Under the pieces are notes generated by a model, which ran no database searches, was not told the DNA's origin, and saw only the letters and a program-made list of their open reading frames with translations. DNA of 64,000 bases from Natrinema longum. Its GTDB lineage: Archaea; Halobacteriota; Halobacteria; Halobacteriales; Natrialbaceae. Location of the stretch: contig NZ_CP071463.1 of assembly GCF_017352095.1 (NCBI RefSeq), positions 2,232,001-2,296,000 of the forward strand. The letters run 5' to 3'. The position numbers and the translations under genes are program-made. This document shows, piece by piece, positions 1,366-42,498 of this stretch (position 1 is its first letter; each line of letters begins with the position of its first letter).

Positions 1366-2496
1366 ATGGGAGACGACCCCGAGGAGGGGATGTTGTCGTG
1401 GGACGAATCCGTGTTCCGCAACGAGCACGTCTTCGAAATCGACTACGTCCCCGAGACGTTCAAGCACCGCGAGGGCCAGACCCAGAGCCTGACCTACGCC
1501 TTGCGTCCGGCGGTGCGGGGGTCGCGACCGCTGAACGTCGTGGTTCGGGGACCGCCGGGCACCGGAAAGACGACGGCGATCCAGAAGCTCTTCGACGAGG
1601 TGGGGGCCCAGACGAGCGACGTTCGGACGATCCGGGTCAACTGTCAGGTCAACGCCACCCGGTACTCGGTGTTCTCGCGGCTCTTCGAGGGGACGTTCGA
1701 CTACGAACCGCCCTCGTCAGGGATCTCGTTCAAGAAACTGTTCGGCCAGATCGCCGAGAAACTCGTCGAGGAGGACAGGGTCCTCGTCGTCGCGCTCGAC
1801 GACATCAACTACCTCTTCTACGAGAACGAAGCGTCGGATACGCTCTACTCGCTGTTGCGCGCCCACGAGGAGTATCCCGGCGCGAAGATCGGCGTTATCG
1901 TGGTCTCCTCGGACCCCGCACTAGACGTGATCGACGAACTCGACTCGCGGGTCCAGAGCGTCTTCAGACCGGAGGACGTCTACTTCCCGGTCTACGACCA
2001 GCCCGAGATCGTCGACATCCTCGAGGAACGCATCACGCGCGGCTTCCACGAGGGCGTCATCGGCCGGGACACCCTCGAGTACGTCGCCGAACTCACCGCC
2101 GAGAGCGGCGATCTGCGGGTCGGCATCGACCTGTTGCGCCGCGCGGGACTCAACGCCGAGATGCGAGCCAGTCGTACCGTCGAGCGCCGGGACGTCGAGG
2201 ACGCCTACGAGAAGTCCAAGTACATCAACCTCTCGCGAAGCCTCTCCGGATTGACCGACACCGAACGGACACTGCTCGAGGTGATCGCCGAGTACGACGG
2301 CGAACAGGCAGGCGACGTCTACGAAGCGTTCCACGACCGGACCGAACTTGGCTATACACGCTACTCCGAGATCGTCAACAAACTCGATCAACTCGGGCTC
2401 ATCGACGCCGACTACGCGGACGTCGACGGCCGGGGGCGCTCGCGGTCGCTCTCCTTGTCCTACGAGAAAGAGGCGGTGTTGGACCGACTCGAGTGA
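1366..2496 (+). CDS. orc: Orc1/Cdc6-family replication initiator
   Basis: AAA+ ATPase of the archaeal Orc1/Cdc6 family, which binds origin repeats and recruits the MCM helicase. Walker A is GPPGTGKTT (residues 62-70) and Walker B is VVALDDIN (about 141-148). The FRNEHVFEIDYVPE N-terminal motif and the C-terminal winged helix (about 290-376, with YTRYSEIVNKLDQLGLI) are typical. Length is 376 residues with the ATG at 1366. The frame is open upstream to 1264, but that part is not conserved-looking. Haloarchaea carry many orc paralogs, and I see no clear origin-recognition repeats beside this one. Confidence 0.9.
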   Translation: MGDDPEEGMLSWDESVFRNEHVFEIDYVPETFKHREGQTQSLTYALRPAVRGSRPLNVVVRGPPGTGKTTAIQKLFDEVGAQTSDVRTIRVNCQVNATRYSVFSRLFEGTFDYEPPSSGISFKKLFGQIAEKLVEEDRVLVVALDDINYLFYENEASDTLYSLLRAHEEYPGAKIGVIVVSSDPALDVIDELDSRVQSVFRPEDVYFPVYDQPEIVDILEERITRGFHEGVIGRDTLEYVAELTAESGDLRVGIDLLRRAGLNAEMRASRTVERRDVEDAYEKSKYINLSRSLSGLTDTERTLLEVIAEYDGEQAGDVYEAFHDRTELGYTRYSEIVNKLDQLGLIDADYADVDGRGRSRSLSLSYEKEAVLDRLE

Positions 2497-2531
2497 TCCC
2501 CGGCCGAAGCCGATTCCGTGGCGAATCCCCT

Positions 2532-4544
2532 TCAGACGCCCCAGACGACGGTGATCCCGACTGTCGTCACGATCGCGAGCAGCAGCTGTAGCGGTCCGCC
2601 GACTTTCAGGAAGTCGGTGAATTTGTACCCGCCGGGGCCGTAGACCATCAGGTTCGTCTGGTACCCCACCGGCGTCATAAACGAGGTCGCGGAGGCGAAC
2701 ATCACCGCGAGGAGGAAGGAAAACCGTGTTGCGCCCAGGCTCCCCGCAGCGTCGACCGCGATAGGGATCATCAGGACCACCGTCGCGACCGGCGTGATGA
2801 CGTTCGCGAGCAGTCCGGTCACGATGGTAAACAGCAACAGGACCGCGACAAGCGGGAGGAACTCGGCAGTGGCGACCAGCCCACCGGCGATGACCTGCGA
2901 GCCGCCGGTCGCCTCGAGGGCGACGCCGAGGGGAATCACGCCGGCCAGCAGGAACACGATGTTCCAGGAGACGGCATCGTAGGCCTCGCTCGTCGACAGA
3001 CAGCCGGTCACGATCATGAGGAAGACCCCGGCGAACGCCGCGATGACGATAGAGACGAGACCGAGCGCGGCGGTCCCGACCACGCCGGCCATGATGGCGA
3101 GCGCGACCGGCGTCTTCGGCGACAGCGGCGCGATTTCCTCGACCCGCTCCTCGAGCAGTCGGTCGGAGGCGTCGTCGACGACGACGAGATCGCCGGTCTC
3201 GGTCACATGCTGGATCGTCTCGGGGACCGTCTGGACCAGCAGGAGGTCGCCGGCCTCGAGCGTCCGCTCCTCGAGGTTGGTTCGGAGCAGTTCGCCGTCG
3301 CGACGGATCGCGAGCACGGTCAGCTGGTAGAACTCCCGGAGATGCGTCTCCGAGAGCGTCTTCCCGACGAACGGCGACTCGAGCGGGACGATCGTCTTTG
3401 CGAGTTGCTCCTCGCCCCCGGACTCGTCGAACGTCTCCTCGGTGACCGATTCGCGATGGAGTTGCCGCAGGGTCTGGCGCTCGACGAACCGATTGACCGC
3501 CTGCAGGGTGCCGTGTACCGTGAGTACGTCGCCCTCCCGGATCCGCCGGCCCGACTCGAGCACTGCGGTCGGGTCGCCCGCCCGGACACGCTGCTGGCTC
3601 TTTGCTTTCACGTCGCTTCGTGATCCGACGGCTCTCTCGGGGTTGGTCTGCGTCTCACGCTCCGCCCCGTCGACGCCGGCCTCCGAATCGTCGTCGCCAT
3701 CGTACTCGAGTACGCGCTCGTTCGCGGCAGGTCTGTCTTCGTGGCTGCCGTCCCGACGGTGCTGGAGCACGCGCACGTCCGCGCCGATCTGCTCCTCGAA
3801 TTCCTCGACCGTGAGTCCGATCGGCGTCGAATCGGCGTCGACGCGGACCTGCGTGAGGTGGTCCTCGAGATCGAACTCCTCGACGAGATCCGCGTCGGCC
3901 GGGATCCGCGCGGGCGTCAGCCACCGGCCGACGGTCATGAGGTAGGCGAGGCCGACGACCAGAATCACGAGCCCGAGGGCCGAGAACTCGAACATGCTGA
4001 TCGGCCCCCGATCGAGCAGGGTGGCGGCGAACTCGCTCGCTAGCAGGTTCGTCGAGGTCCCGACGAGCGTCAGTGTGCCGCCGAGGATCGCCGCGTACGA
4101 GAGCGGCAAGAGCAGTTTCGACGGCGAGATTCCGGTCTCGTCGGAGAGATCGGAGATCATCGGAATGAAGATCGCGACGACCGGCGTGTTGTTGATAAAG
4201 CCCGCGATCGGCCCCGTCGTGGCGATCGTCGCCGCCAGCGCTCGGGTTTCGTCGCCGTCCGTGAACGCAGCGAGCGAGAGGCCGAGTCGCTGGACAACAC
4301 CCGTTTGCTGGATCCCCGCGCTGAGCATGTACATCGCGACGATCGTCACCGTCGCGGTGTTGGCAAAGCCCGAAATCGCCGCCCGGTGGCCCACGCCGGT
4401 CAGCGGCTCGAGTGCCGCCAGCGAGACGATGATCCCGATCGCCGTCACGTCGTTGGGGATGAGTTCGGAAACGAACAGGACGAGGGCGACGGCGATGAGA
4501 CCGAACACCACCAGCACGCCCCCCGATAGCGCCGCGCCGATCAT
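2532..4544 (-). CDS. SLC13/DASS-family permease with two RCK_C (TrkA-C) domains
   Basis: A 670-residue transporter. An N-terminal membrane half (residues 1-210) and a C-terminal membrane half (about 465-670) flank a soluble middle. The DASS substrate motifs are visible as GTSTNLL in the first half and PVGYQTN in the second. Two TrkA-C-like modules lie in the middle (about 230-345 and 375-455). An acidic linker of about 60 residues interrupts the first module. Members move dicarboxylates, sulfate or other anions with sodium; the substrate here is not readable. The gene is convergent with orc, 35 bases away. Confidence 0.88.
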   Translation of the reverse strand: MIGAALSGGVLVVFGLIAVALVLFVSELIPNDVTAIGIIVSLAALEPLTGVGHRAAISGFANTATVTIVAMYMLSAGIQQTGVVQRLGLSLAAFTDGDETRALAATIATTGPIAGFINNTPVVAIFIPMISDLSDETGISPSKLLLPLSYAAILGGTLTLVGTSTNLLASEFAATLLDRGPISMFEFSALGLVILVVGLAYLMTVGRWLTPARIPADADLVEEFDLEDHLTQVRVDADSTPIGLTVEEFEEQIGADVRVLQHRRDGSHEDRPAANERVLEYDGDDDSEAGVDGAERETQTNPERAVGSRSDVKAKSQQRVRAGDPTAVLESGRRIREGDVLTVHGTLQAVNRFVERQTLRQLHRESVTEETFDESGGEEQLAKTIVPLESPFVGKTLSETHLREFYQLTVLAIRRDGELLRTNLEERTLEAGDLLLVQTVPETIQHVTETGDLVVVDDASDRLLEERVEEIAPLSPKTPVALAIMAGVVGTAALGLVSIVIAAFAGVFLMIVTGCLSTSEAYDAVSWNIVFLLAGVIPLGVALEATGGSQVIAGGLVATAEFLPLVAVLLLFTIVTGLLANVITPVATVVLMIPIAVDAAGSLGATRFSFLLAVMFASATSFMTPVGYQTNLMVYGPGGYKFTDFLKVGGPLQLLLAIVTTVGITVVWGV

Positions 4545-39519: not shown

Positions 39520-39906
39520 ATGTTTGGAGGAGGCGGCGGCGGACTCAATCCGCGCAAGATGGAACAGATGATGGAGCAGATGGGTATCGACGTCGAGGAT
39601 ATCGACGCCGAGGAGGTCATCATCCGTACCGACGAGTACGACCTCGTCTTCGACGACGCCGAGGTCACCAAGATGGATGCCCGCGGGCAGGAGACCTACC
39701 AGGTCATCGGCTCGCCCGAGGAGGTCGAAGCCGGCTCGGCCGGTGGCAGTGCCGGTGACGAGTCCGGTTCCGATGCCGGCTCGTCGATCCCCGACGAGGA
39801 CGTCGAACTCGTCGCTACGCGCGCCGGCGTGAGCGAGGACGAGGCCCGCGAGGCCCTCGAAGCGAACGACGGCGATCTCGCCGCGGCAGTCGGCTCCCTC
39901 GAGTGA
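39520..39906 (+). CDS. nac: Nascent polypeptide-associated complex protein
   Basis: A ribosome-associated chaperone that contacts nascent chains. Length 128 residues. The glycine-rich N-terminus [21 protein letters not shown] precedes the NAC domain (about 20-70). A Gly/Ser linker leads to the C-terminal UBA domain ([34 protein letters not shown]). It overlaps trmI by four bases, a coupled pair that is typical in haloarchaea. Confidence 0.95.
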
Positions 39907-40709
39907 CTCGGGTGAGCGACCACGAGCGCGCGGACGACGACGCCGACGCCGGGACCGAGAGCGACGCCGACCGGGACCGCGTTCCGGTCTTGCTCGTCCG
40001 CGGCGACCGCGAGTACCTCGTCGAACCCGGCGACGAGATGGGGACCGACCTCGGCGTGCTCGAGGTCCCCGAGGACGTCCACTCGGGCGATACCCTCGAG
40101 ACGCATCTGGGCGACGAGTTTCAGGTCCGTCGACTGCGCGGCCCGGACCTCTTTCATCACTTCGAGCGGACTGGCGCGCCGATGGTCCCCCGTGACATCG
40201 GACTGGTACTGGGCGAAACGGGAATCGCCGGCGGCGACCGCGTGCTCGACGCCGGGACCGGAACCGGCGTGCTCGCGGCCCTGATGGCGCGTGCCGGTGC
40301 CGAGGTCGTGACCTACGAGCAAGACCCGGAATTCGCCGACGTCGCCCGCGAGAACATGGCGCTTGGCGGCGTCGAGGACGCCGTCGACGTTCGAACCGGT
40401 GACGTCCTCGAGGACGTCGACGCCCTCGAGCCGTCGTCCTTCGACGTCCTGACCCTCGATACGGCCGACGCACCCGCGATGGTCGAACACGCGCCCGACC
40501 TCCTGGTCGACGGCGGGTTCGTCGCGGTCTACAGTCCGTTCATCGAGTCGACTCGCGAGGTCGCCGAGACCGCCCGCGAGGTCGGCCTCGCGAACATCAC
40601 GACCCGCGAGACGATTCAACGCGAGATGCAGTTCGACGAACGGGGCTCGCGGCCCTCGACCGCGCCCGTCGGTCACACCGGGTATCTGACGATCGCGCGG
40701 AACGAATAG
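39903..40709 (+). CDS. trmI: tRNA (adenine-N1)-methyltransferase TrmI
   Basis: A 268-residue SAM methyltransferase for m1A (positions 57/58) in tRNA. The N-terminal beta domain carries an acidic extension. [46 protein letters not shown] (SAM site) and [11 protein letters not shown] are family motifs. A GTG start overlaps the nac stop; a second GTG three codons later is possible. Confidence 0.92.
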
Positions 40710-40721
40710 AGCCACATAAAT

Positions 40722-40916
40722 TCACATATCTTTTTGTTCGCGAATTCTCTGTATCCCCTTTGGAACTAGTTCGTGCATCAATATAGATATAGCAATTCCA
40801 GAAACTACGATCCAATATATCGATAGGTTTACTAGATTACTATCTACGTAGACGAGAATAAGCGCAATAATCGGTGCCCCTAATAAAGACTTTATCATAT
40901 CCATTGTTAATTCCAT
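40722..40916 (-). CDS. Small two-helix membrane protein, possible immunity-type partner
   Basis: A 64-residue protein of AT-rich codon use. Hydrophobic helices lie at about 8-24 (LLGAPIIALILVYV) and 30-48 (LSIYWIVVSGIAISILM), with a basic C-terminus (PKGIQRIREQKDM). It lies 83 bases downstream of the frameshifted Tat-exported protein on the same strand. A membrane protein after a secreted precursor is the usual layout of bacteriocin immunity, but no homology supports that here. Confidence 0.5.
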   Translation of the reverse strand: MELTMDMIKSLLGAPIIALILVYVDSNLVNLSIYWIVVSGIAISILMHELVPKGIQRIREQKDM

Positions 40917-40999
40917 TTTCCAAATGTGACTCAGTTATTTTTGATTCTGTGCCCTATACGCATATAATATCCGGTTATTTAACGGCTGGAGTATTTATA

Positions 41000-41850
41000 T
41001 TAGAAGTCAGGGCAATAGCTATGCTCGGGTAGGGCAAAGAATGTCGTCAGACCGGCTGCATCTCGAGAAGGTTTCCAAGAGGTCATCCCACCTTTAAATG
41101 TCCACATTTTTTGATCCCGAACATGGGGGAGGCTTTGATCCCATTCTAAACTACCCATCGAGACAACGTTACCGGCGGCAGCACTAATCACTGCTCCAAG
41201 TGCATCAGCAACAGAATCTCGCTTCAGGATCTTAGCAAATGCCTTAGGGACTTTTTTAGCCATTGATTTTATAACCTGCCCAACAAGTACTGCCTTTGAT
41301 ACTGTAGCAGCATGTTTATTCAGTTCAACACACGCCACATGGTAGCTATGCTTAAGACAATCAAATGTGCAGGAATCGAGATACACCCGCTTATCCCCAA
41401 CCCTTTCTATCACGTTAGGGGTGTCTGATGCTTGTATGGCTACATCATTCGTAATTAGGTCAGCTTCTTGGTCTTGAGCATTGGGATCATAAACCAATCC
41501 TCGTTCATCATCATTATCATTTGACTGGTTTTTCTGTAGGCCTTTTTTCCCCTTCTCTTCGGGATATCATTCGAACGTCTTTTTCCGTGAGGTTTTTTTA
41601 TAACCCCGTCCAGAATTTCGTTCGAATATTCTTTCACGTATACTTTTCTCGTGTCTTTTTCAATTATGTTCAGCTTCCTTTCATCATTCTGCTCAAATTG
41701 ATAATACCACTTATTTTTATCTTGACCAAGATATTCCATACCCTGGTATTCATGGTTCTGATCCTCGCTCAACCGTGCAGCACTACTGGAAGGGATAATC
41801 CCCATACTTGTTAGAGCAATCCCGCTCGTCAGCACCTTTCTTCTCCTCAT
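41000..41850 (-). pseudogene. Frameshifted Tat-exported protein, halocin-like precursor layout
   Basis: Two overlapping frames, 41455-41850 and 41000-41497, read as one protein of about 283 residues if one frame change is allowed near 41541-41552 (TTTTTTCCCC on the plus strand). The first frame starts MRRRKVLTSGIALTSMG, a Tat signal with a cut near SSSAA. The charged middle reads YYQFEQNDERKLN. The second frame continues upstream as KKGLQKNQSNDNDDERG. It then carries LDSCTFDCLKHSYHVAC and an amphipathic run VLVGQVIKSMAKKVPKAFAKIL, followed by ALGAVISAAAGNVV, ending in CPDF. Either the gene is broken or the frameshift is a homopolymer sequencing error. Function unknown. Confidence 0.6.
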
Positions 41851-42189: not shown

Positions 42190-42498
42190 TTAGTTGTCGT
42201 CCTCGCGCCACTTGTGCTCGCACTCGGTGCAGATGAAAAAGCGCGTCTCGGACTCGTCGGCCGACCGGATCTGTTGCATGTACCAGTGGGCGCGGCCGTT
42301 GCCACACTCGGGACAGATCGCGTCGGTTTCGGGCAGCGAGGTCTCGCCGGAGGACTCGATGACCTCGCTGGCCTCCTGATCGTCGGTGACGATATACTGG
42401 TCCGCGTCGCCTTTCGGTTTCGTAAACCCACAGCTACCACACTCCCAGAGGCCGTCCTCGGCTTTCATCATCGAACCGCATTCGTCGCAAAATTCCAT
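42190..42498 (-). CDS. tfs: Transcription elongation factor TFS
   Basis: The archaeal TFIIS-like RNA cleavage factor (RPA12/RpoM type) that rescues backtracked RNA polymerase. Length 102 residues. The N-terminal zinc ribbon is CDECG...CGSCG. The C-terminal ribbon is CPECG...CTECE. The catalytic acidic loop SADESETRFF between the last Cys pairs is intact. It is transcribed alone. Confidence 0.95.
   Translation of the reverse strand: MEFCDECGSMMKAEDGLWECGSCGFTKPKGDADQYIVTDDQEASEVIESSGETSLPETDAICPECGNGRAHWYMQQIRSADESETRFFICTECEHKWREDDN

Follow-up and report, generated by a model that had tools for sequence, protein, structure and literature searches.

A family of Tat-exported precursors with small membrane partners in Halobacteria and its candidate role in halocin-like antagonism

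The window, the whole stretch of 64,000 nucleotides of Natrinema longum DNA that was analysed, includes an AT-rich island in which a gene with an apparent export signal, split between two reading frames, is followed by a gene for a small membrane protein. A sequence-only reading had proposed that the two are an undescribed halocin-like or toxin/immunity pair that arrived by transfer, and the question raised is whether they are such a pair and, if so, whether the pair is still intact. Nearly all haloarchaea are said to make halocins, yet very few halocin genes are known. The genes described here probably represent a new halocin-like family, of which this genome would carry a broken toxin gene and an intact candidate immunity gene.

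The locus in Natrinema longum and related genomes

The precursor gene lies in two minus-strand frames that predict a protein of 283 aa when joined across an A6 run (Table 1). The predicted product has a twin-arginine start, MRRRKVLTSGIAL...SSSAA, followed by a charged middle and by CTFDC (residues 161-165); Cys also occurs at 174 and 280, and there are SMAKKVPKAFAKIL and A/G-rich stretches. The open reading frame (ORF) of the 64-aa partner, which includes two hydrophobic stretches, is found 83 nt past the precursor stop, and the two genes together have a GC content of 0.413 (41%), compared with ~0.65 in the surrounding DNA. In all of these respects (a Tat-signal protein in two frames with CTFDC and an A/G-rich stretch, and a two-helix membrane protein 83 bases on, within an AT-rich island) the locus is as it had been described.

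Table 1. Features of the precursor locus and its borders, in positions of the window
Feature	Position	Strand	Basis or remark
SAM-dependent (tRNA) methyltransferase-like flanking gene	39903..40709	+	one border of the site
64-aa two-helix membrane protein, intact	40722..40916	-	ORF, homologs, selection
3′ part of the precursor gene (frame 2, -1 frame, ending at stop 41000): conserved C-terminal domain	41000..41560	-	translation, homologs, profile
5′ part of the precursor gene (frame 1, ATG 41850 to stop 41455): Tat signal, propeptide, charged middle	41455..41850	-	frame open to stop 41455
A6 run (GGA AAA AAG in frame 1), at which the frames are joined by a -1 shift; either a lesion or a slippery site	41543..41548	-	
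A7 run, in the upstream copy of a short repeated motif	41592..41598	-	reading of translations
Zinc-ribbon (TFS/RpoM-like) flanking gene	42190..42498	-	other border of the site

The 21 Natrinema genomes that were examined first all have the methyltransferase-like and zinc-ribbon genes on either side of this site, and the content of the site differs between genomes. In G393, an intact ortholog pair (247 aa and 71 aa) is located between the same two genes, and its precursor is 46% identical to that of N. longum over 284 columns; the same gene pair with its first gene unbroken is hence present in another haloarchaeon. The pair is also at this site in G397, where the C-terminus of the precursor is degraded and lacks the conserved His and Cys, and G090 retains a 46-aa precursor remnant beside an intact partner. 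Homologs of the partner occur at the site with no precursor in four further genomes (G321, G027, G163 and G302), and an orphan partner is found at another place, next to a transposase, in G095. The genome that is conspecific in GTDB (G202) has neither gene, only a 452-bp GC-rich interval. The partners found at the site are 43-55% identical to the N. longum partner, compared with 88-92% for the adjacent methyltransferase, and thus diverge far faster than the flanking gene.

As three Natrinema species carry the pair at the same locus, it is a long-standing, patchily kept resident of the site. The locus is old within the genus and patchy, and the putative toxin gene has been broken repeatedly. 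The suggestion that the pair arrived by transfer is therefore only partly borne out: absence from the conspecific genome is in its favour, and the shared location in three species speaks against it.

In G163 and G302 (L039 and L041), a second small two-helix membrane ORF of ~70 aa, MA(D/N)D..ENWT.RDRISLVTKVL..., is present between the methyltransferase and zinc-ribbon genes, upstream of the orphan partner. The G163 and G302 copies share 86% identity and, as there is no precursor beside them, the site may collect immunity-like genes.

Exported precursors and their membrane partners across Halobacteria

Profile A1, made from four precursors including the N. longum copy, was searched against 391 Halobacteria genomes (E <= 0.01). 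Matches were obtained in 19 genomes, and 17 were accepted after each locus had been read, giving 19 copies in nine genera and four families. The 5′ part of the N. longum gene matches the profile at E 8.7e-36 (its own copy being one of the four rows), and the N. longum sequence alone detects L004-L006. Between A1 and the remote subfamily A6 the match extends over the full length (hhalign probability 99, E 6.4e-18) and, on sequence grounds, the precursors are one family. The export signal claimed for the N. longum copy extends to intact homologs, an RR motif being present in nearly all members that have a complete N-terminus. Alignment A2 of 16 members has an invariant C161 and C-terminal H277, a near-invariant H168, a shared Gly/Ala-rich hydrophobic core and an E/D-x-D motif; in the 3′ part of the N. 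longum gene these appear as C..C..H, the G/A-rich hydrophobic core, E/D-x-D and a C-terminal H..C. Nearly all loci are in AT-rich islands.

A profile search of contigs with the best-conserved subfamily found only Natrinema mahii and Halorhabdus salina, the N. mahii protein being identical to the one matched in G106, another genome of this genus. No relative of the queries tried was found in plasmid or viral collections. Precursor and partner have no credible family in Pfam, NCBIfam, PHROGs, PADLOC or PDB sequence searches, and no description of the precursor family was found in the open-access papers searched. AlphaFold2 models from two shallow alignments both have a pLDDT of about 38 and are uninformative on the fold.

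Matches in G076 and G100 (L066, L067) were dropped as chance proteins sharing only the Tat/lipobox start, and L007 was discarded as an ORF within an unrelated gene. At L053 (G033, oriented 619-1770) and L006 (G113, 686-1400), the 5′ end of the precursor is cut by transposase-like sequence; in L053 the C-terminus of the precursor forms a fusion with a transposase frame and the downstream partner is intact.

A partner was defined as an ORF of at least 60 aa on the same strand, with a strong hydrophobic helix and a start no more than 250 nt downstream. Such a gene is present at 16 of the 19 precursor loci, compared with 0.06 expected from block shuffles of the same downstream DNA, and the layout first seen in N. 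longum is therefore a repeated one. Within the window, 1 of 35 genes has a small hydrophobic downstream neighbour of this kind, and loci of the HalH4 family differ from the present ones in having no small membrane gene downstream (0/6). The three loci that have no partner by this definition count against the reading of the family as an antagonism system; none is visible at L055 and L062, and the candidate at L070 is only weakly hydrophobic. Precursor and partner both have homologs and, between N. longum and G397, dN/dS is about 0.2 in the partner and on either side of the break in the precursor. The pair is therefore not a product of chance, and both genes are under purifying selection in this comparison. 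Exported precursors with small membrane partners form a real, widespread and previously unnamed family.

The partners are 64-150 aa with 2-4 helices. In BLASTP comparisons the precursors form one connected network, and the partners match only where their precursors are closely related, detectable similarity being limited to the pairs N. longum-G393, G302-G033 and G144-G318. This pattern, with kin only within precursor subfamilies, may be inferred to be the look of cognate immunity proteins. Further traits of bacteriocin/immunity systems are an exported precursor directly before a small membrane protein and kept with it as a pair, and a partner gene that persists without the toxin gene, both of which are seen here; for bacteriocin immunity genes, protection is usually kept after the weapon is lost. 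A bacteriocin/immunity pair would be expected to show the combination found here: an exported precursor that is conserved, a cognate membrane partner that changes fast, and partners that occur as orphans. The best reading of the family is one of probable antagonism, with the 64-aa protein as a probable immunity protein.

A peptide-signal receptor or sensor could give the same co-variation of precursor and partner. The pair may then be a secreted pheromone-like signal with a membrane sensor or export helper, as an exported precursor with a cognate, co-varying membrane protein would fit a peptide signal and its specific partner, but this is rather improbable. The partners are very short, with few helices, those scanned have no Pfam or NCBIfam signalling domain and, at about 110 aa, the conserved domain is larger than would be usual for a pheromone. 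Partners kept without a precursor would also have no self-made signal to sense, although they could serve for eavesdropping. It is similarly doubtful that the precursor has an unrelated role at the cell surface (surface layer or adhesion), either secreted or inserted in the membrane, with the small protein as its anchor or assembly factor. The Gly/Ala-rich hydrophobic C-terminal region does resemble membrane-anchoring or glycine-zipper segments, and one member has sub-threshold glycine-zipper matches, but the patchy distribution (17 of 391 genomes), fast divergence and AT-rich islands are unlike a housekeeping surface function, and the genes are missing from the conspecific genome and have orphan partners.

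The frame break in the precursor gene

The charged middle of the precursor contains a short internal repeat, KKPHGKRRSND and KKGLQKNQSND, the copies of which start with the A7 and A6 runs. The break in N. longum is in the second copy, and that in G397 is in the equivalent of the first. The G397 precursor also has a -1 frameshift at an A6 run, at a position different from that in N. longum, and there is no frame break in G393. The dN/dS values of about 0.2 indicate that the break is recent relative to the divergence of the two genomes, or that the gene is still translated. The most favoured explanation for the break in N. longum is a lesion, followed by an assembly error and then by programmed frameshifting.

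A sequencing or assembly error in the homopolymer would make the pair intact in this copy and, as it concerns this copy only, is compatible with antagonism as the function of the family. It would account for one lesion, located in an A run, within an otherwise constrained gene of 283 codons. It is nevertheless unlikely, given that the genome is a single contig with 99.83% completeness and that a second species has an independent break.

Programmed -1 ribosomal frameshifting at A_AAA_AAG (A_AAA_AAC in G397) would give a short N-terminal product as well as the full-length precursor, which again is compatible with the antagonism reading. In its favour, the frames of the two broken orthologs are each joined by the same -1 shift at an A6 run that is in slippery phase, the 3′ part is under purifying selection (dN/dS 0.22 between N. 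longum and G397) and the N. longum copy has no other stop. However, the same phase arises automatically when a longer A run loses a base, the two break sites differ in position, and G397 has lost the conserved C-terminal His and Cys as well. G393 and other intact copies (e.g. L004 and L005) are uninterrupted and need no shift, and programmed frameshifting is very unlikely. With the precursor frameshifted by a lesion at the A6 run, this strain probably produces no toxin and would retain the immunity protein.

Relation to halocins and a proposed role

Halocin C8 is made from one precursor that gives rise to both the toxin and an immunity peptide, the propeptide HalI providing immunity (PMC11509114). 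The present precursors are like it in being Tat-exported, haloarchaeal, of similar length (ProC8 is 283 aa) and found in Natrinema (PMC11509114), and in having a hydrophobic Cys-bearing C-terminal part behind a variable proregion. They differ in that the C-terminal part has 1-5 Cys and not the Cys-rich C8 pattern, and the candidate immunity function, if any, is in a separate membrane protein and not in a propeptide as in HalI. TIGR04449 (halocin_C8_dom) matches neither the proteins of the window (E up to 10) nor nine other family members (E up to 1), whereas the HalC8-like controls L072 and L073 match at 5e-12 and 9e-13, and in hhalign comparisons with HalC8-like precursors the Tat signal alone aligns. 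Homology to halocin C8, to which the earlier reading had drawn a parallel, is thus not supported.

Halocin H4 (HalH4, HFX_5264) is also a Tat-exported haloarchaeal antimicrobial with relatives mostly in AT-rich DNA. A HalH4 query found homologs at 54% identity. Alignment A2 and the HalH4-family alignment A4 are matched by hhalign in columns 3-37 only, which are the Tat signal, with no homology of the mature proteins. As a Tat signal is common to very many unrelated haloarchaeal proteins, it is not specific to the halocin C8 family and, as HalC8-like and HalH4-like precursors align solely over this signal, the present family is not a member of either. In line with the earlier statement that homology to a known halocin could not be shown, none to a proven halocin was found past the Tat signal, which counts against the antagonism reading. 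For the proposal of an undescribed halocin-like or toxin/immunity pair, the pairing, export signal, AT-rich islands and orphan partners are favourable, and the lack of halocin C8 homology is not.

Two loci are of note for features of halocin C8. L071 (G308, 1477-2466) encodes a predicted Tat precursor of 329 aa, the final 70 residues of which include ten Cys. This recalls halocin C8, but TIGR04449 gives no match to it at E up to 1; G308 also carries the family member L065. At L073 (Halobacterium salinarum pHSAL1, 1889-3010), a hydrophobic ORF of 68 aa lies 24 nt downstream of a halocin C8-like precursor, an arrangement that contrasts with the immunity of halocin C8 being ascribed to its own propeptide.

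In the SdpC/SdpI system of Bacillus subtilis, a secreted precursor yields a hydrophobic disulfide-bearing peptide that damages membranes, and a membrane immunity protein is encoded nearby. SdpC is exported by Sec, whereas the present precursors have Tat signals, and the comparison is one of how the systems would work; no SdpC-family model was among the NCBIfam matches of the scanned proteins. HmHapP (HFX_0892), compared here by description only, is similarly a secreted haloarchaeal precursor with antagonistic activity after extracellular proteolysis. It differs in that activity is in a 45-aa N-terminal two-helix part, and the portion of its published account drawn on here describes no immunity partner (PMC12893001).

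From the sequences, the first gene would encode a Tat-exported precursor composed of a signal, a variable propeptide and, at the C-terminus, a conserved domain of about 110 aa that includes the Cys/His cluster and Gly/Ala-rich hydrophobic core. Maturation outside the cell by an extracellular protease would leave the domain, or a piece released from it, as the active form; no processing site was found in the precursor. The domain or piece would most likely insert into the membranes of related haloarchaea, and the 2-4 helix product of the second gene would block the cognate toxin in the membrane of the producer. Of this scheme, the export signal, the conservation and the pairing are seen in the sequences, and toxicity, processing, membrane target and immunity are predicted. 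A wider possibility, which we consider quite improbable, is a large, undescribed class of archaeal antagonism proteins that are exported by Tat and matched by hypervariable cognate immunity proteins in the membrane. In some of its lineages toxin production would be switched by frameshifting at an A run (ribosomal or through a change in run length), and orphan immunity genes would accumulate at a fixed chromosomal site.

If the antagonism reading is correct, a family found in about 4% of the sampled Halobacteria genomes would provide many testable halocin candidates, and archaeal immunity proteins would, unlike that of halocin C8, be separate from the precursor. The family would also offer a molecular way into the question of which organisms inhibit which others in salt lakes.
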